Shown here: positions 5,838-51,610 of the stretch, piece after piece
How positions within the stretch are numbered: the first letter of the stretch is position 1
How the letters are laid out: each line of letters begins with the position of its first letter
Assembly (NCBI RefSeq): GCF_002930645.1
Contig: NZ_PSNW01000002.1
Span: 124,001-188,000, forward strand
Length of the DNA stretch: 64,000 nucleotides
Direction: 5' to 3'
Source of the DNA: Solimonas fluminis
Lineage (GTDB): Bacteria > Pseudomonadota > Gammaproteobacteria > Nevskiales > Nevskiaceae
Position numbers and translations under genes: made by a program
Notes under the pieces: generated by a model
What the model saw: the letters and a program-made list of their open reading frames with translations, nothing else
Databases searched by the model: none
What the model was told of the DNA's origin: nothing

Positions 5838-5845
5838 CGGCGGCG

Positions 5846-9579: not shown

Positions 9580-9633
9580 GCCGGCCACCGTCCTTCCCCT
9601 GCCCCCTTCCGGGGCCGCCGCTGCGCCGCCCAT

Positions 9634-9661
9634 AAAAAAGCCGGCGCATGGGGGCGCCGGC
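9634..9661 (-). terminator. Hairpin with T-run on the minus strand
   Basis: GCCGGCGC (9640-9647) pairs with GCGCCGGC (9654-9661); six A residues at 9634-9639 become a T-run on the minus strand. The shape is that of an intrinsic terminator for leftward transcription. No convincing minus-strand gene ends here, so it may stop antisense or divergent transcripts, or be a structured leader element for the small plus-strand frame at 9698. Confidence 0.5.
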
Positions 9662-9697
9662 AGTCATCCGGTGCTTCCGGATGGAGGAGGAAACGTC

Positions 9698-9847: not shown

Positions 9848-9934
9848 AATCCAAGCGAAAAAGCCTGACGATAACGCCATGTTCGTGGTGGCAAGGAGCT
9901 TGCGCCTGAGCCTTGCAACCACGGGGGAATGAAC

Positions 9935-10165: not shown

Positions 10166-10204
10166 ACCGCAACAGCCCCAGGCAGGCCCCGAAGAAGTCG
10201 GTTG

Positions 10205-10294
10205 GTATCGAGCCTGCCGAAGCACGGGCGGGCTCTCTGCTCCACGGGTCAACGAGTTACCGCCCACCCTTCGACAGGCTCAGCGCGAACGGCA
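10205..10294. repeat. Dispersed intergenic repeat fragment
   Basis: ATCGAGCCTGCCGAAGC (10208-10224) and CCCTTCGACAGGCTCAGCGC-GAACGG (10265-10290) match a palindromic repeat common between genes in gammaproteobacteria. It lies between the small membrane protein and the 3' end of the GH92 gene. The rest of 10166-10358 shows no gene. Confidence 0.6.
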
Positions 10295-10358
10295 ACTTCG
10301 TCAGGGTTTCCCGGCGCTTCCCGGTGCAGGCGAGAGGCACGACAGGGTCCTTCATGCC

Positions 10359-12761
10359 TCATCGAGCGATCCTGCCTGCCTCGCATCCGAAATCCTCCAG
10401 ACCGTTCGCACTCACCGAAGGCGGCGCGGAATCCGCGGCCCAGCCGGGGTCCGGCAGCGCCGCGGTCTGCAGGCGCACCGTGGCCGCGCCGCGAGGCAAC
10501 CGCAGCCAGCTGCCGCCGATCGCCTCGCCATCCAGCGACAGGCCGTCGACGAAGGGCTGCAGCGGGCCGGCGCCGGGCGCCTCGATCACCAGGTCGCCGC
10601 CGGGACGATGCAGCGTCACCTTCTCGAAGGCGGGGCTGCCGACCACCGCCAGCGGCGCACCGGGATTGATCGGGTAGAGCCCGATCAGCGTCCAGGCCAG
10701 CCAGCCGGACAGCGCGCCGAGATCGTCGTTGCCGGGCAGCCCCAGCGGCGTCGGCGCGAACAGCGCGGCGGCGGACCGCGCCACCACCTGCGTCTTCCAG
10801 GGCGCGCCGGCGTAGTTGTAGAGATAGGGCGCCTGCAGGTCGTGCTCGTTGCCCGGCGCGTACTGGTTGCCGTAGTAGAACAGGCCGAACAGCGTCAGCT
10901 GGTTCTGCACGAAGGGCCAGGCCCCGGGCAGCAGGCTCGCCGGCAGCAGGAAGAAGGTGTCGAGCCGGCGCTGCACCTCGGCATTGCCGCCCATGCGCTC
11001 GAACAGCCCCGGCAGGTCGTGCATCGCCAGCCAGCTGTACTGCCAGGAAGTGCCCTCCTGGAAGCCGTAGGGCAGTTCCGGCAGGAAGGGAGCGAGCCAG
11101 CTGCCGTCCTCGTGGCGAGGACGGATGAAGCCGCTCTGCGGATCGACCAGGTTGCGGTAGTTGAGCGACTGCTGTGCCAGGCGCTGCGCCTCGGTTCCGT
11201 CGCCGCTGCTGGCCGTCATCAGCGCCAGGGCGAAGTCGGCGATGCCGTACTCCAGCGTGGTGCCGGCTTCGCGCGCACCGCCGGCGAAGACCGCCAGTGG
11301 ATTCGCCGGCTTCTCCACCGGCAGGTAGCCCGGCGCCAGGGCCTCGCGCCGCGAGCGTTCCAGCGCCTGCATCGCCGCCAGCAGCGGCGCGCGCTCGGCG
11401 GCCGGCAGCAGGCCGCGGCACCAGCCTTCGCCGATGAAAGGAATCACCGGATCGCCGGACATGTGCGAGGCATCCACCGGCCCCTGCTGCCAGCGCGGCA
11501 GCCGGCCGCCCTGGACGTGGAAGTCCAGCAGCGAAAGCACCATGTCGCGGTATCGCGCGGGCTGGATCTCGGCCAGCATCTGGTTCTGGCCCCGGTAGCT
11601 GTCCCACAGCGAATACTGGCTGTAGTGGGGACGCACGGAGGCATGCACGGCGTTGTCGGGCCCGCGGTAGCGGCCGTCGATGTCGCCGTGCAGGTTGGGA
11701 AACTGCTGGATGCGGTACAGCGCGGTATACAGCGAGCGGCGCTGCAGTTCCGTGCCGCCCTCCACCTCCACGCGCGCCAGCTCGCCCTGCCATTGCTCGC
11801 GCAGCCGGCCGCGCTGCGCGTCGAAATCCCAGTGCGGCAGCTCGGCGAGATTGCGCCGCGCGCCGGCCAGGTCGGTATAGGACACGGCGATCTTCGCCTG
11901 CAGCGTCCGCGGAGCGCCGTCGAAGTCCAGCAGCAGGGCCAGGCGCTCGCCCTCCACCACGGCCCCCGGCTGCAGCGCCTGCCCCTCGCGCGTGGCGGCG
12001 CGGAACGGCGCATCGAGCTGCAGGGCGAAATACAGGGTGTAGCCGTCGCCGGTATCGACGCTGCCGGAGACCAGGCCGTCCGGCTCCAGTTGCGCCCGCG
12101 CCGGGTGGTAGCCGGCGAGATCGCGCGAGACGTCGAGCAGCAGGCGCGGCGCGCCGCGGCTGTAGTGGTAGCGGTGCAGCGCCACGCGCTCGCTGGCGGT
12201 GATCTCGGCGGTGGTGCCGTAGCGCAGCAGGCCGACGCGGTAGTAGCCCGCCTCCGCGCGGTGATCCAGCGGGTTCAGCGGCGAGGCGTAGGCCGGCACC
12301 GGGTTGGGCCAGCCGAGCTGCGACAGGTCGCCCGGCGTCAGTTCGCCGGTGAACGGCAGCAGCGCGAACTGCCCGCCCTTGGGCGCACCGGCCGACATGT
12401 GCACCTGCGAGAAGCCGGTGACCAGCAGGTTCTGCACGGAGTAGCCGCCGTAGTTCAGCGGCCCCTCGGTATCCGGCCCGGGCTGCACCATGCCGAAGGG
12501 CGCGAAAGGCCCGGGGTTCACGAAGCCGGGCGGGAAGCTGCCGATGAAGGGATCGACATGGGCCGCCAGGTCGCCGCGGGCCGCGGGCGGCGTGTCCGGC
12601 GGCGAGGCCGCGCCATCGCCCGAGGACGGCGCGCCGCTGCGCGCGCCGCAGGCCGACAGCCAAAGGGCCGCCAGCACGGCGGCGAATAAAGTCCGGACCC
12701 GCAAAACGCCCCCCGACGTTGCACGAGCCGGTGTCCCCTTCTTGCCACGGGGAAAAATCAT
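10359..12761 (-). CDS. GH92 family glycosidase (alpha-mannosidase type), lipoprotein
   Basis: 800 residues from ATG 12761 (GGGGAGG 11 bases upstream); a TTG at 12704 preceded by GGGGGG would give a tighter signal peptide and is a real alternative. TLFAAVLAALWLSACG is a lipoprotein signal with lipobox LSAC. The mature part opens with AAHVDPFIGSFPPGFVNPG and carries GH92 landmarks: QVHMSAGAPKGGQFALLPF, QYSLWDSYRGQNQML, DASHMSGDPVIPFIGEGW and LPGNDDLGALSGWLAWTLIG near the C-terminus, then YPINPGAPL. Known family members are calcium-dependent exo-alpha-mannosidases acting on N-glycans or mannans. A surface lipoprotein would trim mannose from host or fungal glycans. It is alone in its unit but shares an upstream box with the ceramidase operon next door. 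Exact linkage specificity is not readable. Confidence 0.88.
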   Translation of the reverse strand: MIFPRGKKGTPARATSGGVLRVRTLFAAVLAALWLSACGARSGAPSSGDGAASPPDTPPAARGDLAAHVDPFIGSFPPGFVNPGPFAPFGMVQPGPDTEGPLNYGGYSVQNLLVTGFSQVHMSAGAPKGGQFALLPFTGELTPGDLSQLGWPNPVPAYASPLNPLDHRAEAGYYRVGLLRYGTTAEITASERVALHRYHYSRGAPRLLLDVSRDLAGYHPARAQLEPDGLVSGSVDTGDGYTLYFALQLDAPFRAATREGQALQPGAVVEGERLALLLDFDGAPRTLQAKIAVSYTDLAGARRNLAELPHWDFDAQRGRLREQWQGELARVEVEGGTELQRRSLYTALYRIQQFPNLHGDIDGRYRGPDNAVHASVRPHYSQYSLWDSYRGQNQMLAEIQPARYRDMVLSLLDFHVQGGRLPRWQQGPVDASHMSGDPVIPFIGEGWCRGLLPAAERAPLLAAMQALERSRREALAPGYLPVEKPANPLAVFAGGAREAGTTLEYGIADFALALMTASSGDGTEAQRLAQQSLNYRNLVDPQSGFIRPRHEDGSWLAPFLPELPYGFQEGTSWQYSWLAMHDLPGLFERMGGNAEVQRRLDTFFLLPASLLPGAWPFVQNQLTLFGLFYYGNQYAPGNEHDLQAPYLYNYAGAPWKTQVVARSAAALFAPTPLGLPGNDDLGALSGWLAWTLIGLYPINPGAPLAVVGSPAFEKVTLHRPGGDLVIEAPGAGPLQPFVDGLSLDGEAIGGSWLRLPRGAATVRLQTAALPDPGWAADSAPPSVSANGLEDFGCEAGRIAR

Positions 12762-12896
12762 GATCGCGATCGCCTCCCCACGGCGGTCGCAGGCGCGGCG
12801 CGCATCCTTTCCGGGATACGCGCCGGCTGCTTCCCCGCCTCTCCTCCCCACCCGGATGCCTGGGCATGCCCGGCATCGCTGTATTCGTATGGCTTC

Positions 12897-12941
12897 GAGT
12901 CTAGGACCGCGGCGGCCGGCGCCCCGATAGTAAATTTCGAC
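12897..12941 (-). promoter_or_regulatory. Promoter region of the GH92 gene with shared upstream box
   Basis: Read on the minus strand: GTCGAAATTTACTAT (12941-12927), 21 bases, then CCTAGACTC (12905-12897), whose TAGACT is a fair -10. The same arrangement stands before the ceramidase operon (17960-17918) with 20 bases between. The upstream box is AT-rich and too far from the -10 to be a plain -35, so it looks like an activator site. Confidence 0.55.
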
Positions 12942-12976
12942 TTTTGTCAGCCCTGCTGCGGGCCGCGGGCAGCGGC

Positions 12977-13020
12977 AAAAAAGCAGGGCCTGCGGCGCGC
13001 CCCCCGACGCACCGCAGGCC
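12977..13020 (-). terminator. Rho-independent terminator of the ceramidase operon
   Basis: On the minus strand GGCCTGCGG (13020-13012) pairs with CCGCAGGCC (12995-12987), followed shortly by six T residues (12982-12977). It lies 13 bases after the stop of the second ceramidase-like gene. Confidence 0.8.
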
Positions 13021-39912: not shown

Positions 39913-41895
39913 CTAGAAATACTCCCCCTTGAACACGTTGGCGAACACCACCTGCTCCAGCGTCGGCTTGCCGCCTTCCTTGCGTCCCTTCGCCGCGGTG
40001 GACGAGGGAAACAGGCGGAAGCCGCGGTTGAGCATGCTGTCGTTGAGCTTGGGCCACAGCGCGTAGGACACGGCGGCAACGGTACCCAGCGGCGTGGCGA
40101 TGGACTTCGGCCGACGCAGCACCGACTCCAGCACGGTATCGCCGGCCTTCTCCGGCGACCAGGCCGGCACGTAGTCGTAGAGCTTGGTCGGTGCGATCAT
40201 CGGCGTGCGCACCAGCGGCATGTAGATCGCGGTGACCTCGATGCCGCGATGCTTCACCTCGGCCGACAGGCAGCGGCTGAACGCGTCCAGCGCCGCCTTG
40301 CTGGCGACATAGGCGGAGAAGCGCGCGGCGTTGGTCAGCACACCGATCGAACTGATGTTGACGATGTGGCCGTCGCGGCGCTTGGCCATCCCCGGCAGGA
40401 AGTTGAGGATCATGCGGATCGCGCCGAAGTAGTTCAGCTGCATCGTGCGCTCGAAGTCGTGGAAGCGGTCCAGCGACTCGAACACGGCGCGGCGGATGGA
40501 GCGGCCGGCATTGTTGATCAGGATGTCGACGTGGCCGAAGTCCTTCAGGATCTCGGCGCAGCAGTTGTCGATGGCCTGCATGTCGTTGAGGTCGCAGGGA
40601 TAGACATGCGCCTCGCCGCCGGCCATCTGGATGATCTTCTGCGTCTCCTCCAGCTTCTCGCGCGTACGCGCCACCAGGATCACCTTGGAGCCGGCGGCGG
40701 CGAACTTCTTGGCGGAGATGAAGCCGATGCCCGAGGAAGCGCCGGTGATGACCACGACCTTGCCGGCCAGCTTGCGCTCGGCGCCCTTCGGCACCTTGGC
40801 GTGGATGTCGAGGAACTGTTCCCAGTAGGCCCAGAGCTTGTCGGCGTAATCCTTGATGTCCGGGCAGTTGATGCCCGAGCCCTTGAGGGCACGGCGCGCG
40901 TTCTTGTCGTCGAACACCGCCGGGTTGGTGACGTAGCCCAACACCGAAACCGGCACGCCGATGGCCTTGGAGATGTTCTTGCCGACGGAGGACGGGATGC
41001 GCTCGCCGAGCCGGTTGGCGAGGTTGCGCGCGGCGGCCGGGATCGCCGGCAGCTCGAACTTGGCGGCGAACTGCGGGCCATGGGCCGCTTCCATCAGCGT
41101 CTGCAGCAGGCTGCCGACCGTGGGCGAGTCCGACTGGATCAGGCAGAAGACCTGGCCGTCTAGGCCATCCTTGTGCGCGATGTGGTCCATGGCCCTGGCC
41201 ACGTAGTCCACCGGCGCCAGCGGCACGCGGCCGCCCTCGATGCCGAGCAGCGGCAGCCACTTGGGCACCGCGTAGGACAGCTTCTGGATGGTCTTGAAGA
41301 AGTAGTAGGGGCCGTCGATCTTGTCCATCTCGCCGGTCTCGGAACTGCCGACCACGGCACCCGGGCGGTAGATGCGGAACGGCGCCTTGCATTCCTCCCG
41401 GACGATCTGTTCGGACTGGAACTTGGTGCGGAAGTACGGGTGCGCGACGCGCTGGCCCTCGTCGAACATGTCCTCGGTGAAGCGGCCGTTGAAGTCGCCG
41501 CCGGCCACCGCCACGCTGGACGCGTGGTGCAGCTTCACCGCGCCGCCGAGATCGTTGACGAAGGCCACGAGGTTGCGCGTGCCCTCGTTGTTGATGCGGT
41601 CGCCGGTGGCGTCGTCCATGCCCATGTCGTAGACGGCCGCCAGGTGGAAGACGTGATCGATCTTGCCCTGCAGCTTCTTGAAATCGGCCGCGGAGACCAG
41701 GCCCGGCGTGGTGATGTCGCCATAGACCGCATGCAGCCGCGAGCCGGCTTCGCCGTAGCGTTCCTGCAGCGCCGCGAACTTGTCCTTGGACGACTCGCGC
41801 ACCAGGACATGCACCTGCGCCTCGGGCCGGCGCAGCAGCTGTTCCAGCAGGAACTTGCCGATGAAACCTGTCGCCCCCGTCACGAAATAGTTCAC
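39913..41895 (-). CDS. Fatty acyl-CoA reductase (two-domain, Marinobacter type)
   Basis: 660 residues from GTG 41895 (GGGAGG 7 bases upstream), giving the start VNYFVTGATGFIGKFLLEQL that matches the Marinobacter enzyme. First domain: male-sterility/thioester-reductase SDR (TGATGFIG at 7-14; Tyr and Lys in HPYFRTKFQSE ~154-158; FRIYRPGAVVGSSETGEMDK). Second domain: classical SDR (TGASSGIG at ~384-391; NNAGRSIRR; INISSIG-type VNISSIG; catalytic YVASK at ~529-533). The two-domain enzyme in Marinobacter reduces fatty acyl-CoA through the aldehyde to the alcohol with NADPH and feeds wax-ester synthesis. Similarity is recalled, not computed, but extends over both domains including the linker. No wax synthase is in the window. 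Confidence 0.9.
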   Translation of the reverse strand: MNYFVTGATGFIGKFLLEQLLRRPEAQVHVLVRESSKDKFAALQERYGEAGSRLHAVYGDITTPGLVSAADFKKLQGKIDHVFHLAAVYDMGMDDATGDRINNEGTRNLVAFVNDLGGAVKLHHASSVAVAGGDFNGRFTEDMFDEGQRVAHPYFRTKFQSEQIVREECKAPFRIYRPGAVVGSSETGEMDKIDGPYYFFKTIQKLSYAVPKWLPLLGIEGGRVPLAPVDYVARAMDHIAHKDGLDGQVFCLIQSDSPTVGSLLQTLMEAAHGPQFAAKFELPAIPAAARNLANRLGERIPSSVGKNISKAIGVPVSVLGYVTNPAVFDDKNARRALKGSGINCPDIKDYADKLWAYWEQFLDIHAKVPKGAERKLAGKVVVITGASSGIGFISAKKFAAAGSKVILVARTREKLEETQKIIQMAGGEAHVYPCDLNDMQAIDNCCAEILKDFGHVDILINNAGRSIRRAVFESLDRFHDFERTMQLNYFGAIRMILNFLPGMAKRRDGHIVNISSIGVLTNAARFSAYVASKAALDAFSRCLSAEVKHRGIEVTAIYMPLVRTPMIAPTKLYDYVPAWSPEKAGDTVLESVLRRPKSIATPLGTVAAVSYALWPKLNDSMLNRGFRLFPSSTAAKGRKEGGKPTLEQVVFANVFKGEYF

Positions 41896-41970
41896 GGCCA
41901 ACCTCCCTCGAAGTGATGTTGGGTTCATTCTGGGAGATCGATATTACCGAAGGACATGGCCGCAGAGACA

Positions 41971-42021: not shown

Positions 42022-42330
42022 TCACTGTGACAGTGCGGACTCCTGGACCCAGCCGCTGTAGTGCTGGTACTCGGTGTACCACCAGGCGCCGTCGCGATTG
42101 GACTGGCGGACCTGCAGCTTGAGGCCCGCGCCGGCCGGCACCGGTCCTTCGACGGTGGACTGATGCTGCGGCCGCGCACGCAGCACGGTGGCCTGCCGGG
42201 TCTTCGCCGGCCCCGGCATCAGGGCCGGCGGCGGCGCGACCACCGGCGGCGCCACGATCATCACCGGCAGCCGCGCCTGCGCCGGAAGCACCAGGCCCGC
42301 CAGCACGGCGGCCCACAGGATTCTCTTCAC
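42022..42330 (-). CDS. Small secreted SH3-like protein
   Basis: 102 residues from GTG 42330 (GGGGAGAACATC upstream). Signal VKRILWAAVLAGLVLPAQA, a Pro/Val-rich linker, then a bacterial SH3-like tail: VPAGAGLKLQVRQSNRDGAW and WYTEYQHYSGWVQESALSQ. The same tail occurs in the broken copy at 42393 and in the barrel protein at 42608. Cell-wall or peptide binding is the usual role of such domains (inference). Confidence 0.75.
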   Translation of the reverse strand: MKRILWAAVLAGLVLPAQARLPVMIVAPPVVAPPPALMPGPAKTRQATVLRARPQHQSTVEGPVPAGAGLKLQVRQSNRDGAWWYTEYQHYSGWVQESALSQ

Positions 42331-42356
42331 GATGTTCTCCCCGCTTGTTGTCTGAA

Positions 42357-42380
42357 GCGGCCCGCCCCCCGGCGGGCCGC
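42357..42380. repeat. GCGGGCC hairpin after the broken SH3 copy
   Basis: GCGGCCCGCC / GGCGGGCCGC, 10-bp perfect stem with a CCCC loop. A related hairpin follows the barrel gene at 42569-42604. Confidence 0.7.
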
Positions 42381-42392
42381 CCCGACAGCTTA

Positions 42393-42510
42393 TTACTGCA
42401 CGAGGGCGCTGTCGCTCAGCCAGCCGGTGCTGCCGTTGTAGTCCTCGAACCACCAGGCACCGCCGGCGTTCGGCAGGCGCTGCTTGATGTTCACCGTGGC
42501 CAGGGGGCCT
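42393..42510 (-). pseudogene. Truncated SH3-tail copy
   Basis: The last ~38 codons read GPLATVNIKQRLPNAGGAWW then FEDYNGSTGWLSDSALVQ and a stop. This aligns to the C-terminal tails of both flanking genes (VPNAQGVWWYASYNGMSGW in the barrel). Upstream of GPLAT the similarity stops at once at GCCTGAGCGGATCGAAGGGC (42507-42526), a dispersed-repeat sequence, and there is no signal peptide or start. So it is the 3' remnant of a third family member. Confidence 0.75.
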
Positions 42511-42568
42511 GAGCGGATCGAAGGGCATCGAGGGGCGATACCGCGCCCAGGCCGCCGCCGTCGGCTCG

Positions 42569-42604
42569 GCGCAGGCGGCCCTCCGGATGGCGGGCCGCCT
42601 GCGC
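42569..42604. repeat. Long hairpin after the SH3-tailed barrel gene
   Basis: GCGCAGGCGGCCC (42569-42581) pairs with GGGCCGCCTGCGC (42592-42604), 13-bp stem, 4 bases after the stop of the barrel gene (minus strand). No T-run follows, so a Rho-independent terminator is uncertain; it may stabilise the 3' end. Confidence 0.65.
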
Positions 42605-42607
42605 GGT

Positions 42608-43576
42608 TTACTTCAGCGCGCTTTCGCTGACCCAGCCGGACATGCCATTGTAGGACGCATACCACCAGACACCCTGAGCGTTGGGCACACGCTGCAGCAG
42701 CTGCAGCTCGGCACCAGCCGGGATACTGCCGTCGATGGGGGCACCCGAGCGCGGCTGGCGCAGCAACATGGTGGGCTGGGCCGTCAGGCGTACGCCGGCC
42801 GCCACCATGCCGCCGGGCAGATCGGGTTTGATGGTGCTGGAAGCGGACGTGGGTTGCGAAGCCGCCGGAATCGAGGTGGGGGCGGCCGTTGCAGGATGCG
42901 GCGGCTGGGACTGGATGGCAGGAACAACCGGCGCCGGGGCCGCAGCAGGCGGGTAGGCCGGCTGGTACGCCGGAGCAGGTGCCGGCGCATAGCTGGACGG
43001 CAGCCGCGACGTGCCGCTGGGAAGCTCCAGCACCACGCCCAGGCTTATAACAGTGACGTTGCTTTCCCCTGCATCGCTATCCGGGAAATCGCTGAAGTCC
43101 CTGACGTCGACATAGTTCTCGAGATCGAAACGCAGGCCGAACCAGGGCGTGAGCTTCCAGTCACCGCCGAGGCCGTAAGTGAATCCGCTGGAGGAAGCCG
43201 ACCTGTCGGCAAAGGGGGTATTGGTCAGCTCCAGATCGGCATCGCCATCGTAGTAACCACCCTTGAGCCATACGCCGGAGCCCTTGGAGTCGAGCTTGGC
43301 GAAGTAGCCCAGCGATCCGCGCACCCCCGAGAACTTGAGGCCCACGCCAGACGGCAGTCCCCTGATATCGTGCTTGCCGGCATCCGTGTAGGCCACCTCC
43401 AGCATCAGCGGCACCTGATCGAACCGGTAACCCGCGAATGCCGCGAAGCTCGTCGCGTCGTCCACGTCTTCGTATTCGTACTGACTGAAGGTGCCGGCAC
43501 CGCCGACATAAGGCCCCGCCACCGCCACGCCGCTCATCGCCAGGGCACCCAGCCCCAGCCAGTTCACGAACTTCAT
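42608..43576 (-). CDS. Outer-membrane beta-barrel protein with C-terminal SH3-like domain
   Basis: 322 residues. Signal FVNWLGLGALAMSGVAVAGP; an eight-strand-type barrel (YVGGAGTFSQYEYEDVDDAT to NVTVISLGVVLELPSG, residues ~22-185) of the OmpA-like/OmpW-like class; a Pro/Ala/Ser linker (~190-260); and an SH3-like tail (SIPAGAELQLLQRVPNAQGV, WWYASYNGMSGWVSESALK). A barrel that carries a periplasmic SH3 domain would tether the outer membrane to the cell wall (inference). Two related tails follow downstream. Its leader has GATAGAGT as a possible -10. Confidence 0.82.
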   Translation of the reverse strand: MKFVNWLGLGALAMSGVAVAGPYVGGAGTFSQYEYEDVDDATSFAAFAGYRFDQVPLMLEVAYTDAGKHDIRGLPSGVGLKFSGVRGSLGYFAKLDSKGSGVWLKGGYYDGDADLELTNTPFADRSASSSGFTYGLGGDWKLTPWFGLRFDLENYVDVRDFSDFPDSDAGESNVTVISLGVVLELPSGTSRLPSSYAPAPAPAYQPAYPPAAAPAPVVPAIQSQPPHPATAAPTSIPAASQPTSASSTIKPDLPGGMVAAGVRLTAQPTMLLRQPRSGAPIDGSIPAGAELQLLQRVPNAQGVWWYASYNGMSGWVSESALK

Positions 43577-43648
43577 GCATCCCCCCGGTGAATGGCCTGA
43601 CGGCCAGATCTGATTTTTCGCAACTCTATCTTGCCGTCATAACGTCGG

Positions 43649-43671
43649 AAAAACAGCTAGCCGGATGGCTA
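43649..43671 (-). terminator. Terminator of the haem-protein operon
   Basis: On the minus strand TAGCC-atcc-GGCTA is followed by GCTG and five T. Short stem but well placed, ~30 bases after the stop of the last operon gene. Confidence 0.5.
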
Positions 43672-43702
43672 ATACGCCGGAACCCGGCCGGGGTGGTTTC
43701 CG

Positions 43703-44569
43703 TCAGTAGTCGCCCTCGTGGTGCTTCGCCGCCTCGCGCAGTTCGGCCCGCTGCCGCAGGCGCTGGGCCCGGTCCTTGTCCGAGCGCCAGATCACGTCGG
43801 GGAACAGCAGCACGCGCAGCAGGCCCACCAGCATGAACAGGTAGCTGAAGCTGAACAGGAGGCCGCAGAACATCGACACCCATTCGAAGCTCGGCGCCAC
43901 GTACTTGATGCCCCACCAGGACATGACGTCCACCACCGAGGCGGTCAGGCCCACCGGGAAGATCCACTGGTAGGACTGGAGCTGGTTGAACTGCATCGAG
44001 AAGGGGATGCCGATGATGAAGAAGCTGGTGGTGAAGCCGAACAGGTGGGCGTGGGTGAAGGCGATCAGCTTGCCCAGCGACATCTGCTCGAAATAGGCCT
44101 GGGCCGTGCCGTGCAGGCGCAGCTGGTACCAGATCTCGGAGGCGCCGAAGCAGAAGGCGATGCCGAACATCACCACCGCCATGGCGATGCCGCGCTTGGC
44201 CGCCGGCGGCAGCTCGCGCAGGTTCAGCTCGACGCTGTGGGACTCGAAGGGGATGAACCACCAGACCGCCGCCAGGATCACGAAGAACACCGCGATCAGC
44301 GCCAGCGGCCCGCCCACGGTCAGCCACAGCGGCTTCTCGGGCGGCAACTCGACGATGGCCGTGCTCTCCACCGGCTTGTCGCTGAAGAAGTCGAAGTCGT
44401 CGCCGGCGGGCGTCTCCTGCTGCTCCGCCGCCGCGGGCGGCGCGGCATCCGCTTCGGCCGCCGACACGGCGAGGCTGCGCGCCAGCAGGAACACGGCGAG
44501 GAAGAAGGCGGCCACGCCGAACTCGAACAGGCGCACGGCGCCCTTCCCGGCCGGCCGCACGCTACGCAT
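43703..44569 (-). CDS. Polytopic membrane protein of the cytochrome operon
   Basis: 288 residues. N-terminal helix (LFEFGVAAFFLAVFLLARSL), an acidic Pro/Ala periplasmic stretch (~40-75), then about five helices. Conserved-looking histidines lie in LRLHGTAQAYFEQM and LIAFTHAHLFGFTTSFFIIG, the latter two in or at a membrane helix, so a haem or metal site is possible. WIFPVGLTASVVDVMSWWGI is aromatic-rich. No family recognised. Overlaps the mono-haem cytochrome gene by 8 bases; last in a five-gene unit. Confidence 0.78.
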   Translation of the reverse strand: MRSVRPAGKGAVRLFEFGVAAFFLAVFLLARSLAVSAAEADAAPPAAAEQQETPAGDDFDFFSDKPVESTAIVELPPEKPLWLTVGGPLALIAVFFVILAAVWWFIPFESHSVELNLRELPPAAKRGIAMAVVMFGIAFCFGASEIWYQLRLHGTAQAYFEQMSLGKLIAFTHAHLFGFTTSFFIIGIPFSMQFNQLQSYQWIFPVGLTASVVDVMSWWGIKYVAPSFEWVSMFCGLLFSFSYLFMLVGLLRVLLFPDVIWRSDKDRAQRLRQRAELREAAKHHEGDY

Positions 44570-45320
44570 TCTTGAGCCTCACGTACAGCAGCGTGCCGGC
44601 CTTCTTCACCGCCGCGGTGATCGCCGCGTCCAGGTCGCTGCCGGCCGCGGCGGGCAACTGGTCCACGGCCACGCCGCTGAACTTCGCGTAGACCTTGCTC
44701 TGCGCCGCGGCGGGCACCTGGCTGCTGTTCATCGCCCTGACCTGAGTGACCTTGAGCTGGCGGTCGGTCACCAGCAGCAGGAAGAAGGTCTTGCCCTTGA
44801 ACTCCGCCGGGAAGATCAGCGCGGTACCGGCCGGGCGCTTGTCCTGCAGCGGCACGTAGATGGTGTTCTCGTCGGCCTTGCCCAGGACGGCGCCCAGGGT
44901 CTTGGCCCGGGCGATGTCGGCCTCGGTCAGGATCGCGTCGCGCGGCAGGTACTCGCGCACGCCGGGGAAGGCAGCCTGCACCTCGCGCGGGATCAGGCTG
45001 GCGGTATCCAGCCAGTCACCCTTGCTGGCCGGCGTGGAACTTCGGTTGCCGGGATTGGCGCGGGCCTGGGCCTCGGCGCCATTGGCGGCACCGTCGCCGT
45101 CGGCATCGTTGCCGGCGATCTTCGCGAAGGACCCGGCGTTCATGCCGGCAGTCTTGAACTGCTGTCCGTAGGCGTTCAGCGGCGTGCCGCCGCCGTCCTT
45201 GTGGCAGGCGTTGCAGGACGGCGCATAGCCGTACTCGGCCTTGTACATCCGGGCGAAGGCGGGTTCGGCCTGGGCCTGGGGGAACGCGAGAACCAGCAGC
45301 AGGGGCAACAAACGCTTCAC
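44562..45320 (-). CDS. Mono-haem c-type cytochrome with C-terminal domain
   Basis: 252 residues. Signal LLPLLLVLAFPQAQA; haem site CNACH (residues 36-40) in GYAPSCNACHKDGGGTPLNA. A calcium-loop-like segment AGNDADGDGAANGAEAQARA follows at ~69-88. The C-terminal ~130 residues (YVPLQDKRPAGTALIFPAEF, FFLLLVTDRQLKVTQVRAMN, AAITAAVKKAGTLLYVRLKN) form a separate alpha/beta domain, faintly like FMN-binding domains of RnfG/NqrC type but without their flavin Thr motif. Electron carrier in the periplasm. Confidence 0.82.
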   Translation of the reverse strand: MKRLLPLLLVLAFPQAQAEPAFARMYKAEYGYAPSCNACHKDGGGTPLNAYGQQFKTAGMNAGSFAKIAGNDADGDGAANGAEAQARANPGNRSSTPASKGDWLDTASLIPREVQAAFPGVREYLPRDAILTEADIARAKTLGAVLGKADENTIYVPLQDKRPAGTALIFPAEFKGKTFFLLLVTDRQLKVTQVRAMNSSQVPAAAQSKVYAKFSGVAVDQLPAAAGSDLDAAITAAVKKAGTLLYVRLKNA

Positions 45321-45331
45321 CGCGTCCCTCC

Positions 45332-47050
45332 TCAGAAATCGAACAGCCCGGGCACCGTGGCGCGCATGCGCTCCAGCAGCTGCGGGTCCTTCTTCAGCGC
45401 CGCCTCCAGCGCGGTGCGCTGCGGCGAATCCGCCGGCGGCATCAGCGTATGGGCCTTGTCGCTGCCGCGGTAGCGCTCCCAGTCCAGCACGTCGCGGATC
45501 TTGGCGGTGGCCCTGACCTGCTCCAGCACCTCGGCCTCGCTGCGCCCGCCCATGAAGTCCAGGCGCCTGGCGGGGTTGCCGCGATGGCAGCTGAAACAGT
45601 ACTCCTCGAAGGGATGCAGCGGCGAATCCGCGGCCAGCTTCAGCGGCGGGCCGCCGCTGGCCTGCGGCGGCGACATCTCGGCGGTGGCCAGGCAGCAGTA
45701 GGCCGGCGCCGTCTTCTCGCCCAGCACGGTCAGCAAGGCCTGCATCGTCTTCACCCGCGAGAACGGGCCAGGGCGGAACAGTGCCGGGTCCAGGCGGTCC
45801 ACGGCGGCCTCCAGCGCCTCGGGACCGAGGCCGCCGGCCTGCTCCAGGCGACGGCGGTCCCCCTCGCTGAACAGCGCCGCCAGGCCATAGATGCCGTCGA
45901 TGTCAGCCGCCGTCAGCAGGCGCTTGGGCGGGCGCGGCGTCAGCGGGTCCAGGGACGCAGGCAGTTTCGGCAGGCGGTCGAAGGCCACCAGGTCCTCGTT
46001 GTTGCGCGCGCCCTCGCCCGGCTTCGGTTCCGGGGTGAACAGGCCGCGGATGCGGTTGCGCAGGCCGCGCCGCTCAGCCAGCGGATCGCGGTTGCGCAGG
46101 TCGGACTCCGGCACGGCGATGCCTTCGGCAGGCCAGGCCGCGGCCTGCATCCGGCGCAGCTCTGCGGCCTGCGACCCCTGCGCGTCGAAGCTGCCGGGGT
46201 CGGAGAGGTAGCGCAGCGCCAGCTTGAGCATCAGGCGCCGGCAATCCGCGCCCCCGGCACCGCAGGCGTCGATCCACAATTGCTGCGTCACCGCGACGAA
46301 GGCCCCGGTGTCGGTCAGTTCATCGAAGCGCTCCGGCGAAGCCAGCGGCTGGGCGGTGGGCATGCCGAGATAGGGCTCGCCGCGGCGCGCCGCGGCGATC
46401 TGCGCGGCGATCTCGGGCTGGCCGTTGGTCTCGGCCCAGGGACGCTGCGGGAAGATCGGCGTGGCGCCCTGGTGGCAGGTGGTGCAGACCGCGCGCCGCG
46501 CGTAGACGATGCGGCGCGCGCCGGTGGCGGAGTAGTCCTGCACCAGCTGGAACTCGAAGCGGCCCGCCGCCTCGTTGTAGCTGAGCACCTCGATCTCGTT
46601 GGCCTCCTCGACGAAGCCGAGGAACAGCTGGCCGCGCGGCGCCAGGCCCAGCGAGGCCGGCGTGCCCGGCGCCTGGAAATCGGCCGCCACCAGCACGCGC
46701 GGATGGCGGAAGTCCGCCTGTGCCTTCAGCAGTGAGCGGCCCTGCGGGATCATCAGGGTCACCGGCATGCGTCCTTCCGGATCCTGCTTGCGCAGCATCT
46801 CCACCAGCTTTTCGAAGGGATACGGCAAGCCGTCGTTCTGCGCCACCAGGTGGTCGAACAGCGAGCGCGTGCCGGCCGGGGGCAGATCCTCGCTGGCGAT
46901 CAGCTTCGCGCTCAGCCGCGGCGCGGCCTGCGCCGGCTGCTGCGCGCTGCGCGCGACGATGTCGGGCCCGCGCGGCCCCGGCGCCGGGCGCAGCCACAGC
47001 CAGGCGGCGACGCCCAGCGCAGCGACCAGCAGCACGAGGGCGCGCTTCAT
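45332..47050 (-). CDS. Di-haem c-type cytochrome, membrane-anchored
   Basis: 572 residues. ATG 47050 overlaps the upstream stop (ATGA). N-terminal anchor or signal ALVLLVAALGVAAWLWLRP with no clear cleavage site. Haem site 1 CTTCH (189-193) in RAVCTTCHQGATPIFPQRPW; site 2 CFSCH (485-489) in FEEYCFSCHRGNPARRLDFM. A Cys pair also stands in DACGAGGADC and YCCLATAEM. RYRGSDKAHTLMPPADSPQ near the end could supply the axial Met. No family recognised beyond cytochrome c. Third gene of the operon. Confidence 0.82.
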   Translation of the reverse strand: MKRALVLLVAALGVAAWLWLRPAPGPRGPDIVARSAQQPAQAAPRLSAKLIASEDLPPAGTRSLFDHLVAQNDGLPYPFEKLVEMLRKQDPEGRMPVTLMIPQGRSLLKAQADFRHPRVLVAADFQAPGTPASLGLAPRGQLFLGFVEEANEIEVLSYNEAAGRFEFQLVQDYSATGARRIVYARRAVCTTCHQGATPIFPQRPWAETNGQPEIAAQIAAARRGEPYLGMPTAQPLASPERFDELTDTGAFVAVTQQLWIDACGAGGADCRRLMLKLALRYLSDPGSFDAQGSQAAELRRMQAAAWPAEGIAVPESDLRNRDPLAERRGLRNRIRGLFTPEPKPGEGARNNEDLVAFDRLPKLPASLDPLTPRPPKRLLTAADIDGIYGLAALFSEGDRRRLEQAGGLGPEALEAAVDRLDPALFRPGPFSRVKTMQALLTVLGEKTAPAYCCLATAEMSPPQASGGPPLKLAADSPLHPFEEYCFSCHRGNPARRLDFMGGRSEAEVLEQVRATAKIRDVLDWERYRGSDKAHTLMPPADSPQRTALEAALKKDPQLLERMRATVPGLFDF

Positions 47051-47691
47051 GCCGCGCTCCCGCGCTCGGCCCAGGCCGCGGCGGCGGCAAAGGCCAGGTA
47101 GCCGGCCAAGGCCATCGCGGCGACGGCGCGGGCATCGTCCATCAGCCAGGGTCCCAACGTATGCGCGGCCTGTACCACCGACAGCACCGCGGCGAGCGTC
47201 CAGGCACGCCGCGCGTGCCGCGGCAAGGTCCGCGCGTACAGCGCCGTGCTGCCGAGCAACAGGACCAGCTCCAGAGCCAGCTCCGGCACCGGGTAGTTCC
47301 ACAGGCCCAGGCCGAGCTTGTGCTGGTTGCCGTACAGGGGCAGGTCCGGCGCATGCACCAGCAGGTCCAGGAACCAGTGCGAGGCCACCGCGGCCGCCAC
47401 CGCCAGCGCCGCCGCACGGCCGTCGCCGCGCCGCAGGGCATGCCAGGCCAGGCCCAGGGCCGCGGCCCAGGCCGCCGTCGCCAGCAGGCTGTGCGTATAG
47501 GGCATGTAGTAGAGGTCCACCGGAAAGGCCGCGGTGAAGCCCGGGACCACCCGCGCCTTCTCGATGCCCGCCATCACCAGCAGCGCCCAGCCGATGTCCA
47601 CCGCCTGCACGGCGAGGAACATCGCCCACAGCGGCACCCTCGGCTGCGAGGCCTTGAGCGCGAAGGCGGCGCTGTAGTGGCCGACGAACAT
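47047..47691 (-). CDS. Membrane-bound hydrolase-like protein (YdjM/DUF457-like)
   Basis: 214 residues, five or six helices. MFVGHYSAAFALKASQPRVP opens it with an early His; LYYMPYTHSLLATAAWAAAL and VASHWFLDLLVHAPDLPLYG supply the HS..H..D histidine/aspartate set of the YdjM-like metal-dependent family. Role unknown. Lies between two di-haem cytochrome genes, 7 bases after one and overlapping the next, so it belongs to the same unit. Confidence 0.75.
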   Translation of the reverse strand: MFVGHYSAAFALKASQPRVPLWAMFLAVQAVDIGWALLVMAGIEKARVVPGFTAAFPVDLYYMPYTHSLLATAAWAAALGLAWHALRRGDGRAAALAVAAAVASHWFLDLLVHAPDLPLYGNQHKLGLGLWNYPVPELALELVLLLGSTALYARTLPRHARRAWTLAAVLSVVQAAHTLGPWLMDDARAVAAMALAGYLAFAAAAAWAERGSAA

Positions 47692-47698
47692 GCGTCCG

Positions 47699-50098
47699 CT
47701 ACATCAGCTTGAGGAATTCGCGCAGCGCCAGCTTGTCGTCCTTCGACAGCGACACGCCGAACTGGTGCCCCTTGTTCTCCACCAGGTCGTCGCATTTCAT
47801 GAACAGCGGCGAGTGCGGATCGGAGGAGGTGAAGGCGGCGATCGGCGTACCCTTCTTGACCGTCAGGCGGATCGGGCCCTGCTGGTCCTCGCGCGGCGCC
47901 AGCTTGATGTCGCGGTCGGTGACGCTGATCTTCTGCGGACGGTGCGGCGTGACGTTGGGATTGTCCGAGGTCAGCAGCTCGTCGAAGGCGATCTCGAACT
48001 GCTTCACGCGGCCACGCACGGTGTAGTCGATCGCGCCGTTCTTCAGGTGCGTCAGCTCGCCGATGGCATTGTTGTGCAGGAACGGCGCGGTGGCCCAGGC
48101 CGACAGCAGCGAGAAATTGCGCAGGTAGCCGCTGCCGCCCTCGATCTTCTTCTCGCCCATCACGCGCCCGCCCAGCCCCGGGACCATGCGGTTGAGCACC
48201 TGTGGCACCGAGCCCGGCGAGGGCCGCTGGCGGAAGGTCTCGGAAGCGAACTGCTCCCAGATGTGCCCGGCGTTGTGGTTGTCATGCATCGCGCGGCACA
48301 TGTTGGTGCCGATGATGTTGAACGGCACCGGCTCGTCGTTGGCCAGCCAGTCCTGGCCGAGGAAATCCTTGCCGACGAACTGGCGCGGGCGCAGCCTGCC
48401 GCTCTGCGGGTCCTTGGCCAGGTACTTGGCCTGGAAGGCCGCCGAGTTGCGCTCGGCCTCGCTGAACTCGTATTGCCAGTAGTCCTCGGCACCGAAGACA
48501 TGGCCCTCGTAGTAGCGCTCCAGCGCGGCCTTGTCGGCACGCACATTGTCCGGCGCGAACTTGGAGCTGTGGCAGCCGGCGCATTCGCGGGCGAAGACCT
48601 TGCGCCCCTGCGGCACCCTGGCCAGGTCGATGAAGGCGGAGCCGGGCGTGCCGTCGACGTCCGTGGCCTTCAGCAGGTAGGTCGGCCCGCCGGTCATCAG
48701 GAAGGAGGCCAGCTCCGGCATCTTGGCGTCGGCGTAGTTCCAGGCCTCGCAGTCCTTGGCGCATTGCGCGATGTCGAAGGGCTTCTGGCGCGCCTGGTCG
48801 CCGAAGAACGTGCCCGGCTTGGGGAACTTGGGCGTCCAGCATTCCTCGGTGCACATGCCGATGTTGACGTAGACGCGGATCAGCGCCAGGTGCTCGCCGA
48901 CGCTGTCCTCGCCGCCCTTGAGCACGTGGCGCGTGCGGGCCTTGGAGATCTTGCCGGTGACCGGATCCTTCATCTGCTCCTCGAACAGCCGCTTGTTCGA
49001 GAAGTCCATGATGTTGTTCTGGGTGCCGGGGTTGTGCTGGAAGTCGGTGGCCACCAGCGAAGTGTCGATGGTGCCCACGCGATGACCCAGGCCCAGCACC
49101 TGCCGCGACAGCGAGTCCTGCGGCGTGCCCATCACGTACTGCATCGGCTGCATGGTGTACTGGTTGCCGATGGTGGCGTGGATGTTCTCCCACCTGGGCT
49201 GGTTGGGGTCCTTGGGCGGGTTGGTGGGGTCGAAGGCCACGTGGCACTGCACGCAGGGCCCGCCCAGCACGTAGCGCAGGTTCTTCTGCAGCTCGTCCTT
49301 GCGGTAGGGTGAAGTGGCCGGATCGAAGGTCACCTTGCCCGAGGCGTCCCGGGTCGGGTCCTGGTAGTACTTGCGGTAGCCCAGCACGCCGGAACTGTGG
49401 GCGTCGGGGCAGCGGTCGTACCAGTGGGTGCTGGCGTCGCCTTCCGTGCAATCCGGGTCGTTGATCATTCCCCACTTGGTGAAGCGGTGCTTGCGCTCGC
49501 GCGTATCGAGCCAGGGATACCAGACGTTGTCCTTGCCCACGGTGCGCGTGGTGTGCAGGTATTCCTCGTCCTGGTTGCCGAAGCTGCCCTTGAACCAGAC
49601 GTCGCGGCCGCGACGCACCTGTTCGCGCGCCAGCTGGGCCGCGGCGGGGTTGGTCTTGGCCAGGTCCTTGAACAGCTGGTTGACGTAGCGGCAGGACTCG
49701 GCGTCGTAGCCGGTGGGCTGCGGCTGGTCGCAGGGCGGCGGCGGCGCCTGCGGGATCGGCACGATGTCCCAGGTGATCGGCCCCTGGAACGGCGGGTAGT
49801 GCGGCGGGGAGCTGCCGTCGCGCCAGACCTTGCGGGCGGCCAGGGTGTCGTAGAAATGGGCGTCGTACCAGGCGCGGTCCTTCTGCACCTTGGGCGAACC
49901 CTGCCAGGTGCCGGTGGTCAGGTTCAGCCGGACCAGGTCGTCCAGGGAAATGGACCGGTAGGTGGCGGTGTAGGGCGCATCGGGCACCGGATAGAGGCCG
50001 GCGCCCCCGGGCGAGGCATAGGGCGCGGGAGCGGCGGGCGGCGCGGCCAGCGCCACGGGTGAAGACAGCAACAGCGCCCACAGCAGCCGCTTGACCAT
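47699..50098 (-). CDS. RoxA-like di-haem c-type cytochrome (MauG/CcpA superfamily)
   Basis: 799 residues; GAGGGGA before the ATG. Signal LLWALLLSSPVALAAP. Haem sites CVQCH (282-286) and CAGCH (506-510), 224 residues apart. The C-terminal half has IGTNMCRAMHDNHNAGHIWE and QFASETFRQRPSPGSVPQVL, then GGSGYLRNFSLLSAWATAPF and LHNNAIGELT, which are the landmarks of the peroxidase/oxidase fold in RoxA-type rubber oxygenases and their relatives. RoxA of Xanthomonas cleaves polyisoprene with oxygen; it has two haems ~200 residues apart. This protein is longer by 100+ residues and has extra Cys (GMCTEECW; QCAKDCEAW). Substrate unknown. First gene of a five-gene unit. Confidence 0.78.
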   Translation of the reverse strand: MVKRLLWALLLSSPVALAAPPAAPAPYASPGGAGLYPVPDAPYTATYRSISLDDLVRLNLTTGTWQGSPKVQKDRAWYDAHFYDTLAARKVWRDGSSPPHYPPFQGPITWDIVPIPQAPPPPCDQPQPTGYDAESCRYVNQLFKDLAKTNPAAAQLAREQVRRGRDVWFKGSFGNQDEEYLHTTRTVGKDNVWYPWLDTRERKHRFTKWGMINDPDCTEGDASTHWYDRCPDAHSSGVLGYRKYYQDPTRDASGKVTFDPATSPYRKDELQKNLRYVLGGPCVQCHVAFDPTNPPKDPNQPRWENIHATIGNQYTMQPMQYVMGTPQDSLSRQVLGLGHRVGTIDTSLVATDFQHNPGTQNNIMDFSNKRLFEEQMKDPVTGKISKARTRHVLKGGEDSVGEHLALIRVYVNIGMCTEECWTPKFPKPGTFFGDQARQKPFDIAQCAKDCEAWNYADAKMPELASFLMTGGPTYLLKATDVDGTPGSAFIDLARVPQGRKVFARECAGCHSSKFAPDNVRADKAALERYYEGHVFGAEDYWQYEFSEAERNSAAFQAKYLAKDPQSGRLRPRQFVGKDFLGQDWLANDEPVPFNIIGTNMCRAMHDNHNAGHIWEQFASETFRQRPSPGSVPQVLNRMVPGLGGRVMGEKKIEGGSGYLRNFSLLSAWATAPFLHNNAIGELTHLKNGAIDYTVRGRVKQFEIAFDELLTSDNPNVTPHRPQKISVTDRDIKLAPREDQQGPIRLTVKKGTPIAAFTSSDPHSPLFMKCDDLVENKGHQFGVSLSKDDKLALREFLKLM

Positions 50099-50176
50099 GC
50101 CAATCCCCTCGTCTTTCGTTCTTGGTGTGCTGGAGCCGGATGGCCCTGGCCCGCCTCGGACGGGCGGTGCCGGGCC

Positions 50177-50206
50177 AGTCTAGGGACCCGCCACGGGGGG
50201 AAGCAA
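50177..50206 (-). promoter_or_regulatory. Putative promoter of the cytochrome operon
   Basis: Minus strand: TTGCTT (50206-50201), 18-base spacer, TAGACT (50182-50177). The ATG of the first gene lies ~80 bases further. Confidence 0.5.
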
Positions 50207-50240
50207 GCCAAGGGACTGCCAACCCTGCCGCCATCGGTGC

Positions 50241-50348
50241 GCCGCCCTGCGGGCAGCCTTCGGGGCGACCGCCTTGGCGCAGGGCGGCATCCCGAGACGC
50301 GCGGCGGACAAGACGTACATCAGCGGCCCCGGGGCGCCGCCCTGCGCC
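50241..50348. repeat. Intergenic repeat with GCCGCCCTGCG arms
   Basis: GGCGCAGGGCGGC (50276-50288) and GCCGCCCTGCGCC (50336-50348) are perfect 13-base inverted arms; GCCGCCCTGCG also occurs at 50241-50251. This type of repeat is widespread in xanthomonad-like genomes and often gives false reading frames. No gene between 50099 and 50391. Confidence 0.7.
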
Positions 50349-50391
50349 GAAACGATCTCCGTCGCAGCGAGCGCGGCGGAGTTGACGGTCC

Positions 50392-50862
50392 CTACTGGTC
50401 GGCCGGCGGAGTGACGGCGGGAGCCACCGTGCGCAGCGGCATCAGCGGCAGTTCCAGCCGCGGCAGCAGGCGCTCGATCTGCGCCAGCGCCTCGCCCTCC
50501 GAGTAGGGCTTGGCCGGGTGCTTGCCCCAGACCGGAGAGGGCCAGGCGGCGTCGGTGGTGAAGCGCACGATATGGTGCATGTGCAGCTGCGGCACCACGT
50601 TGCCCAGCGCCGCGATGTTGAGCTTGTCGCCCTTGTAGGCCTGCGCCAGGGCGCGGCTCAGGATCATCGATTCCCGGAACAGCTGGGTCTGGTCGGCCGC
50701 ATCCAGCTCGTGGATCTCGCGGACGTCGTTGCGCCGCGGCACCAGGATGTACCAGGGATACCGGCTGTCGTTCATCAGCAGCAGCCGCGACAGCGGCCAG
50801 TCGCCGGCCACGATGCAGTCGGCGTTGAGTCGGGGATGAAGGGTGAAGGACACGGAAGTCAT
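50392..50862 (-). CDS. HIT domain protein
   Basis: 156 residues. SRYPWYILVPRRNDVREIHE and NVVPQLHMHHIVRFTTD hold the histidine triad region (HxHxH followed by hydrophobics). Members hydrolyse or transfer nucleotides (e.g. adenylylated compounds). Divergent from the NAD(P)H-binding oxidoreductase gene. Confidence 0.9.
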   Translation of the reverse strand: MTSVSFTLHPRLNADCIVAGDWPLSRLLLMNDSRYPWYILVPRRNDVREIHELDAADQTQLFRESMILSRALAQAYKGDKLNIAALGNVVPQLHMHHIVRFTTDAAWPSPVWGKHPAKPYSEGEALAQIERLLPRLELPLMPLRTVAPAVTPPADQ

Positions 50863-50959
50863 GGGCCATCCTTGGCGTCAGGCCGCTTTTGACCAGCCGA
50901 CGCCGCCGCAGTTTCAATACCGGCGGTTACACTGCCGGCCATCGATTGAGGATAGCACC

Positions 50960-51610
50960 GTGAACGAGACCAAGACCGCCCTGCTGGCCGGGGCCACCGG
51001 CGCCGTCGGCCAGAAGCTGCTGCCGCTGCTGCTCGCCTCCCCCGACTACGGCCGGATCAAGGTGATCGGCCGCCGACCGCCGGCCCAGCGCCATCCCAAG
51101 CTGGAAGCGATCAGCAGCGACTTCGGCGACCTGCCGGCGCTGGGCGCGAGCCTGGCGGCGGACGACGTCTACTGCTGCCTGGGCACCACCCAGGGCAAGG
51201 CCGGCCGTGACGGCCTGGAGCGGGTGGACCATGACTACGTACTGGCCCTGGCCGCCGCCGCCCTGGCACAGGGCGCCCGCCAGTTCTTGGTCGTGTCGGC
51301 CATCGGCGCCTCGGTCCATTCGCCCTCGTTCTATTCGCGCGTGAAGGGCCGCATGGAGCAGGGCCTGGCGGCACTGGGCTACCCCTCGCTGCGCATCGTG
51401 CAACCCTCGCTGCTGCTGGGCGAGCGCGACGAGCACCGCCCCGGCGAGGCCTTCGCCCAGAAGCTCAGTCCCCTGCTGTCGCCTCTGCTGGCGGGGCCGC
51501 TGGCCAAGTACCGGCCGATCACGACGCAGGCGGTGGCCGAGGCGCTGCTGACGCTGTCGCGGCGGCCTTACCAGGGGACAAGGATTCATACGCTGCCGCT
51601 GCGGGGATAA
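50960..51610 (+). CDS. NAD(P)H-binding protein, HTATIP2/YwnB-like
   Basis: 216 residues from GTG 50960 (GAGGATAGCACC upstream). TALLAGATGAVGQKLLPLLL is the nucleotide loop; VIGRRPPAQRHPKLEAISSD, DDVYCCLGTTQGKAGRDGLE and FLVVSAIGASVHSPSFYSRV with the Tyr/Lys pair are typical of short atypical SDR proteins. Probably a reductase or redox-sensing protein. No operon partner. Confidence 0.88.
   Translation: MNETKTALLAGATGAVGQKLLPLLLASPDYGRIKVIGRRPPAQRHPKLEAISSDFGDLPALGASLAADDVYCCLGTTQGKAGRDGLERVDHDYVLALAAAALAQGARQFLVVSAIGASVHSPSFYSRVKGRMEQGLAALGYPSLRIVQPSLLLGERDEHRPGEAFAQKLSPLLSPLLAGPLAKYRPITTQAVAEALLTLSRRPYQGTRIHTLPLRG

Follow-up and report, generated by a model that had tools for sequence, protein, structure and literature searches.

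The genome of Solimonas fluminis (G000; 4.67 Mb, 34 contigs) carries, within the 64,000-nucleotide stretch of contig NZ_PSNW01000002.1 that was analysed here and is called the window, a set of genes that is kept together in many bacteria and that, judged from its sequences, encodes an uncharacterised two-haem enzyme, distantly akin to the rubber-cutting enzymes, together with haem-protein and membrane partners of its own. The conserved unit comprises four genes, A, C, D and E, and a further gene, B, is an accessory insert. The closest named record for A belongs to Solimonas sp. SE-A11 (94-95% identity). The features of the locus are listed below, and the invariance counts, taken from the alignments of A, C, D and E, include the window protein.

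47699-50098, minus strand: gene A, the lead gene, a RoxA-like di-haem protein of 799 residues with a signal-peptide-like start
49241-49255, minus strand: haem site 1 of A, CVQCH, residues 282-286; C282, C285 and H286 invariant in 26/26
48569-48583, minus strand: haem site 2 of A, CAGCH, residues 506-510; C506, C509 and H510 invariant in 26/26
47047-47691, minus strand: gene B, 214 residues, about four hydrophobic segments, weak resemblance to YdjM; optional insert
45332-47050, minus strand: gene C, a di-haem protein of 572 residues with a hydrophobic N-terminus
46472-46486, minus strand: haem site 1 of C, CTTCH, residues 189-193; C189, C192 and H193 invariant in 26/26
45584-45598, minus strand: haem site 2 of C, CFSCH, residues 485-489; C485, C488 and H489 invariant in 26/26
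44562-45320, minus strand: gene D, a mono-haem protein of 252 residues with a GTG start and a signal-like N-terminus
45201-45215, minus strand: haem site of D, CNACH, residues 36-40; C36, C39 and H40 invariant in 25/25
43703-44569, minus strand: gene E, an integral membrane protein of 288 residues with about five hydrophobic segments, HAHLFG and DxxSWWG
44036-44053, minus strand: motif HAHLFG of E, residues 173-178; H173 and H175 invariant in 24/24
43657-43672, minus strand: weak terminator-like hairpin, starting 30 bases 3' of E

The five minus-strand genes with their 2+2+1 CxxCH sites lie where the original prediction had placed them, and the spacing it described agrees with the measured gaps of 7 bases (A/B) and 11 bases (C/D) and overlaps of 4 bases (B/C) and 8 bases (D/E). 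A promoter-like site had also been claimed 5' of the unit and is not borne out, as a sigma-70-type scan of 42500-51500 found no such site (shuffle mean 0.7). The claimed terminator-like hairpin is well placed after E, and folding of 43640-43710 indicates mild stability (z = -1.73), but the three terminator-like hairpins in the scanned 42500-51500 are no more than chance would give (shuffle mean 3.9).

A contig search with A returned 48 named loci, and 42 of them hold A-C-D-E in the same order and on one strand according to profiles of the four proteins, each built from the window and 23-25 loci and thus in part from loci that were later scored; the window's own proteins as single-sequence queries gave 42/48 again. 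The cassette loci belong to Nevskiaceae, Moraxellaceae, Limnobacter, Leptospiraceae bins and others, and A is truncated by the contig start in several of the complete ones. Among the incomplete loci, L043, L047 and L052 reach or approach a contig end, and L064 has A-C-D with no E within the following 3.9 kb. In L063 and L071, E stands about 2.5 kb from D, and inspection by eye of the intervening genes of L063 suggests that they are unrelated. Over 36 loci, the pairwise identities of the four proteins correlate at 0.77-0.89.

The same association is seen in whole genomes. Among 85 genomes of the order, A is present in 33, E in those same 33 and C in 32 of them, these order-wide counts covering A, C and E, with D not searched at that level. 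The only genome with A and E that lacks C (G025) contains, at L185, fragments of A (N-terminal) and D (C-terminal) and an E spread over two frames, remnants that mark a decaying cassette. In a class-wide sample of 369 genomes, in which only the best few candidates per genome were scored, A was found in 12 (five full-length and of cassette type, seven distant or partial), C in seven (the five cassette-type genomes, G214 and G296) and E in 13 (the same five plus eight distant ones).

The conserved unit had been claimed to contain five genes, and this needs to be narrowed: the four core genes are widespread and co-conserved, whereas all five stand together in only 5 of the 33 cassette genomes of the order (G000, G051, G052, G044 and G058). 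Among the 48 named loci, B is present in L031, L032, L036 and L070. Any match to B is confined to 9/85 genomes of the order, where B-like genes also lie elsewhere in the cassette-free G014, G027 and G046 and in the cassette-bearing G050, and B as a core member was rejected for its low in-cassette frequency and its occurrence in genomes without the cassette. Its score against the putative hydrolase YdjM (PF04307) is 19.6 bits, below the cut-off of 29.

The product of A appears to be a divergent RoxA-type di-haem protein, forming a separate, further branch. The NCBIfam model for di-haem peroxidases, NF040606, is matched by all 26 A members in the C-terminal haem domain (best E value 4.7e-13), and the window protein scores 40.2 bits over residues 490-688, where the cut-off is 150. 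At an E value of 0.01, and below cut-off, RoxB is matched by 16 of the 26 members, RoxC by five and RoxA by one, whereas Pfam CCP_MauG finds no match among them at an E value of 0.1. The two haem-binding His residues of A, H286 and H510, are 224 residues apart. In an alignment bridged by five intermediates to ten Rox-type proteins encoded elsewhere in the same genome, both CxxCH sites of A are aligned, WATAPFLHNN of A lies on WATAPYLHNG of the ten, and the terminal GHxF..EFLK of A lies on the Rox-type GHDF..EYLK, with a helix after GHxF. All eight aligned cassette A members have PF[LM]HNN, in which the His and first Asn of PYxHNGSVP are kept and GSVP is absent. The His of GHQF in A, H778, aligns with the GHxF His in 10/10 Rox-type proteins of this alignment, which does not include RoxA itself, and from its position it may be the equivalent of RoxA H641, the second ligand of the C-terminal haem. 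An invariant W421, 89 residues before H510, may take the place of RoxA W302; its column in the ten Rox-type proteins holds Trp in two, Phe in five, His in two and Gln in one. A PDB profile search with A returned cytochrome c stretches near haem 2. Taken together, the Rox landmarks and the NF040606 matches agree with the original description of the lead protein as RoxA/MauG-like, at scores below the cut-offs, and curated models do not place it with the ordinary cytochrome c peroxidases.

A second cluster of conserved residues was also observed in A, where C601, H605, H608 and H612 are invariant in CRAxHxNHxxGH (residues 601-612; window 48263-48298) and are also present in the distant protein of L157. 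This cluster could be an extra metal site.

Two further suggestions about the lead protein fared less well. A polymer oxygenase has no direct support: the NCBIfam cut-offs are 1000 bits for RoxA and 900 each for RoxB and RoxC, A scores 15.8 bits against RoxB, and a rubber oxygenase proper was rejected on these grounds; over-cut-off RoxB proteins are encoded elsewhere in the same genome. The term 'secreted' was overstated, as what is present is a signal-peptide-like start in A and an N-terminal hydrophobic stretch in C.

Nor do the partners of A reach the cut-off of any curated family. C matches no Pfam or NCBIfam family over cut-off and has no match in the plasmid collection, and several of its relatives have, by eye, a lipobox-like Cys. 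Its structural model, in which haem is not included, is fairly confident (predicted local distance difference test, pLDDT, 84.9; predicted template modelling score, pTM, 0.85), and no fold match to it was found in the PDB at an E value of 0.001 or below (best 0.39), a missing match being no proof of a new fold. Profile searches of the PDB gave weak, chance-level matches for C and D and none for E. A kinship of C with A or with the Rox-type proteins was also considered and rejected, the hhalign probabilities being 2% and 6%, respectively. D contains a conserved TSP3-like loop, DxDxDGxxN..E, and 13/25 members match PF18884 at an E value of 0.1. The GEGP di-haem protein model NF041762 matches D at 58.5 bits over residues 32-99 only, which include one CxxCH, whereas the model has two haems and a cut-off of 300. 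The C-terminal domain of D has no Pfam match; by eye it had seemed to be like a flavin mononucleotide-binding domain, a candidate that was dropped since Pfam gave no such match.

E likewise belongs to no Pfam family. The paired His that the original prediction had noted in AFTHAHLFGF are confirmed, both residues being invariant in all 24 sequences. Distant relatives of E were fetched, and in all eight a CxxCH lies 34-36 residues before HIHLFG, which places E in a group of electron-transfer-like membrane proteins whose haem E has lost or never had. D may supply in trans the haem that E lacks. These relatives (L160-L166 and L153) are membrane proteins of about 256-286 residues in which a CxxCH domain is joined to SHIHLFG..D..SWW, and the membrane part of the three that were scanned matches no Pfam or NCBIfam family over cut-off. 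They share HxHLFG and the D..SWW region with E and differ from it in having their own CxxCH domain and no match to A, C or D nearby.

The cassette appears to have moved intact across phyla. Taxonomic names are the record labels, many of them of metagenome bins, and the neighbours of L048 were judged by eye. A tree of A was built from the window, one outgroup and 43 locus sequences. In it, three sequences from Leptospiraceae are placed within Moraxellaceae and Perlucidibacaceae (joining branch 95/91), and four Burkholderiales sequences, including Limnobacter, fall among Nevskiaceae; rooting is unsafe because of the very long outgroup branch. All four Leptospiraceae loci (L048, L057, L073 and L078) hold A-C-D-E, with A cut in L078. 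Over three Leptospiraceae, eight Moraxellaceae-group and five Nevskiaceae loci, the mean identity of the Leptospiraceae to the Moraxellaceae group versus Nevskiaceae is 75.1 versus 64.1% for A, 61.3 versus 51.6% for C, 59.4 versus 47.9% for E and 57.0 versus 52.2%, a smaller gap, for D. An extract of PMC13066512 (this and the papers below are cited from extracts) describes a di-haem oxidoreductase gene of Leptospira whose companions are imelysin genes rather than C, D or E.

Outside the cassette, the nearest relatives of A are di-haem proteins associated with GMC oxidoreductases, which match over most of A (E values 1e-55 to 1e-91, in small sets of open reading frames). They differ from A in having GMC and often patatin-type partners, and the His of the MauG motif is missing in two of the five aligned; identity to cassette A over the main matched stretch is 27-31% for the five compared. 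A GMC oxidoreductase gene adjoins the A-like gene in four of the six gammaproteobacterial neighbourhoods fetched (L154, L155, L156 and L158), and in L157 the A-like gene is instead accompanied by a lipoprotein-like gene and a C relative (E value 4.3e-83). The plasmid collection has A-like matches in 21 records, all rhizobial, with 30-32% identity among the matches listed, and the GMC gene is next to the A-like gene in 3/3 rhizobial plasmid regions examined. Patatin is called by Pfam in L178 (43.6 bits) and L154 (30.6 bits) at a cut-off of 27.7, and a neighbour in L155 is similar to the patatin-type protein of L154 (E value 5e-58). These GMC and patatin neighbours suggest lipid chemistry for the wider family.

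Two rhizobial plasmid regions have further features. On plasmid pOM4 of Mesorhizobium onobrychidis (L179), a gene of about 1,560 residues beside the A-like gene (8291-12979), annotated as a GMC oxidoreductase, matches both GMC and patatin queries and is an apparent GMC-patatin fusion. On plasmid pRL11 of Rhizobium johnstonii (L178), positions 429-12781 contain a one-strand run of seven genes, which encode, in order, an NADH:flavin oxidoreductase, a RoxA-like di-haem protein, a small protein, a second RoxA-like di-haem protein, an A-like di-haem protein, a GMC oxidoreductase and a patatin-like phospholipase. The gene order in Sinorhizobium fredii (L177) is similar, and the run is possibly a second lipid redox cluster.

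The ten other Rox-type proteins of the S. fluminis genome, a large set for one genome, are encoded at five places:

C12, 371-379 kb: Rox-type place L094
C1, 674-679 kb: Rox-type place L095
C1, 196-199 kb: Rox-type place L096
C29, 235-238 kb: Rox-type place L097
C23, 329-337 kb: Rox-type place L098

Unlike A, these genes have no match to C, D or E in the stretches taken. The RoxB model was scored on three proteins, out of 13 candidates in the genome, and all three are over cut-off. A third, N-terminal CRxCH is present in 8/10 of the set, and such a motif has been described for RoxC proteins (PMC10837239). Phe occupies the W302 place in the published RoxC proteins, and the function of the RoxC branch is not known (PMC10837239).

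Within the window, the minus-strand region 42022-43576, downstream of the cassette, encodes a beta-barrel protein of the outer membrane whose C-terminal stretch is SH3-like, with a match just under cut-off; two shorter open reading frames after it (42393-42665 and 42022-42528) have ends that, judged by eye, resemble repeats of this stretch. Further downstream, a minus-strand gene (39913-41928) encodes a fatty acyl-CoA reductase-like protein of 671 residues with NAD_binding_4 and short-chain dehydrogenase matches, and the cluster to which it belongs is found at 17/48 loci.

Compared with known systems, A resembles RoxA, RoxB and RoxC in its large size, its two c-type haems, its MauG-type His-Asn motif and its GHxF His ahead of a C-terminal helix; the CxxCH sites are 199-245 residues apart in RoxA and in PA2077 and PA2078, and 224 in A. 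It differs from them in scoring far under their cut-offs and in having PF[LM]HNN in place of PYxHNGSVP. PA2077 and PA2078 of Pseudomonas aeruginosa, an oleate 10S-dioxygenase and a 7,10-diol synthase, are periplasmic, RoxA-related di-haem enzymes in which 245 and 235 residues separate the haem sites (PMC4496055); they form a two-enzyme pathway for which the extract of that paper mentions no partners such as C, D and E, the comparison with A being one of descriptions and not of sequences. A shares with the cytochrome c peroxidase/MauG superfamily the C-terminal haem domain, and is set apart from it by its length of about 800 residues, its score under the NF040606 cut-off and the missing CCP_MauG match. 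As the original prediction had supposed, a pathway with this gene set seems to be undescribed, and no description of A-C-D-E was found in searches of the openly licensed literature.

Starting from the observed gene content, gene order, co-occurrence, haem motifs and landmark conservation, we infer an electron direction, a carrier order, a quinone donor, ligand roles, a cellular place and a substrate. We tentatively propose, at somewhat under an even chance, that the A-C-D-E cassette is mobile and encodes a periplasmic di-haem enzyme that uses peroxide or oxygen and has its own membrane electron route. E, in the inner membrane, would exchange electrons, probably with quinone, and the mono-haem D and then the anchored di-haem C would pass them to A, giving a path E-D-C-A. 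In RoxA, the N-terminal haem binds O2 and the C-terminal haem is bis-His (PMC6311187), and these roles serve as a model for A, not as a result. By this analogy, the N-terminal haem of A (H286) would be the reactive, ligand-open site, and the C-terminal haem (H510, with H778 as its likely second ligand) would be the electron-transfer site. A might then reduce peroxide, either hydrogen or lipid peroxide, or reduce oxygen in concert with a substrate, which would most likely be an envelope lipid or a fatty-acyl compound. The dedicated electron carriers of the original prediction are likely, with three extra haems and a membrane protein kept together with A. A RoxA-type dioxygenase is not known to require an external electron chain, and since the cassette nevertheless keeps these components, an electron-taking enzyme is preferred. 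A more specific version is possible but doubtful: in a horizontally moving system, a new RoxA-type branch would be connected to the quinone pool by E, whose relatives carry haem, by the mono-haem calcium-loop protein D and by the di-haem C with its unseen fold, and would perform peroxide-dependent envelope-lipid chemistry.

Several observations weigh against this proposal. A lies below every curated Pfam and NCBIfam cut-off, its hhalign comparison with the ten Rox-type proteins reached a probability of 22% with the haems unaligned, and its structural model is of low confidence (pLDDT 64.9) and gives only non-significant MauG fold matches. The sole conserved His pair of E, two residues apart, argues against an ordinary b-haem. 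The unit is also not intact everywhere: L075 (genome G121) has A-C, with D and E not adjacent in the 12 kb taken and E on another contig, L065 (genome G065) has A alone and C-D-E together on another contig, and the class search found in G296 a C relative with no A match. As for the substrate, the lipid clue comes from relatives of A at 27-31% identity (30-32% for the rhizobial ones) that have other partners and lie outside the cassette. Moreover, L157 and L159 have no GMC gene, L159 stopping just past the A-like gene, and the L155 neighbour has no Pfam patatin call at an E value of 0.001. The fatty acyl-CoA reductase-like gene of the window was rejected as a cassette partner, being present in 79/85 genomes of the order whether or not they have the cassette.

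A could alternatively be a dioxygenase of lipids or isoprenoids that, like RoxA or PA2077, is self-sufficient, in which case C, D and E would only prime the haem or carry electrons from later product oxidation. The Rox landmarks of the bridged alignment speak for such an enzyme, RoxA binds dioxygen at its N-terminal haem without having peroxidase activity (PMC6311187), and PA2077 oxygenates oleate (PMC4496055). We regard it as unlikely, however, in that it would have no need of a membrane protein and three further haems, the extracts of PMC10837239 and PMC6311187 mentioning no dedicated redox partners for Rox proteins, and the equivalents of F317 and W302 in A have no confident assignment. The MauG-type PFLHNN motif, the MauG entries that head the non-significant fold list of A, and the pairing of A-like and C-like genes also in the distant L157 would all fit a MauG- or MbnH-like enzyme that uses peroxide to oxidise residues in C, D or another partner protein, so that the cassette would build a modified cofactor; this is improbable, as a substrate protein recognisable by a known modified motif was not seen and the MauG entries have chains of 354-355 residues, about half the size of A. 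Equally improbable is a reverse flow, in which the cassette would be a dehydrogenase conduit, with A oxidising a substrate and its partners C, D and E feeding the electrons to the respiratory chain, since, although distant A relatives adjoin genes of the GMC family, which comprises dehydrogenases and oxidases, the cassette itself gives no substrate clue and the members of the RoxA/MauG/peroxidase group are, to our knowledge, users of oxygen or peroxide and not dehydrogenases.

RoxA-type di-haem enzymes carry out rubber cleavage and fatty-acid oxygenation, and the A branch, with its fixed set of partners, provides a direct handle on the electron source or sink of such enzymes. As the partners have no curated family and C has no fold match, the cassette also points to new types of cytochrome and membrane protein. 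Its apparently intact transfer between phyla indicates that the function of the cassette is likely useful and self-contained, and since Solimonas, Limnobacter and Agitococcus are culturable cassette genera, this function is open to genetics there.

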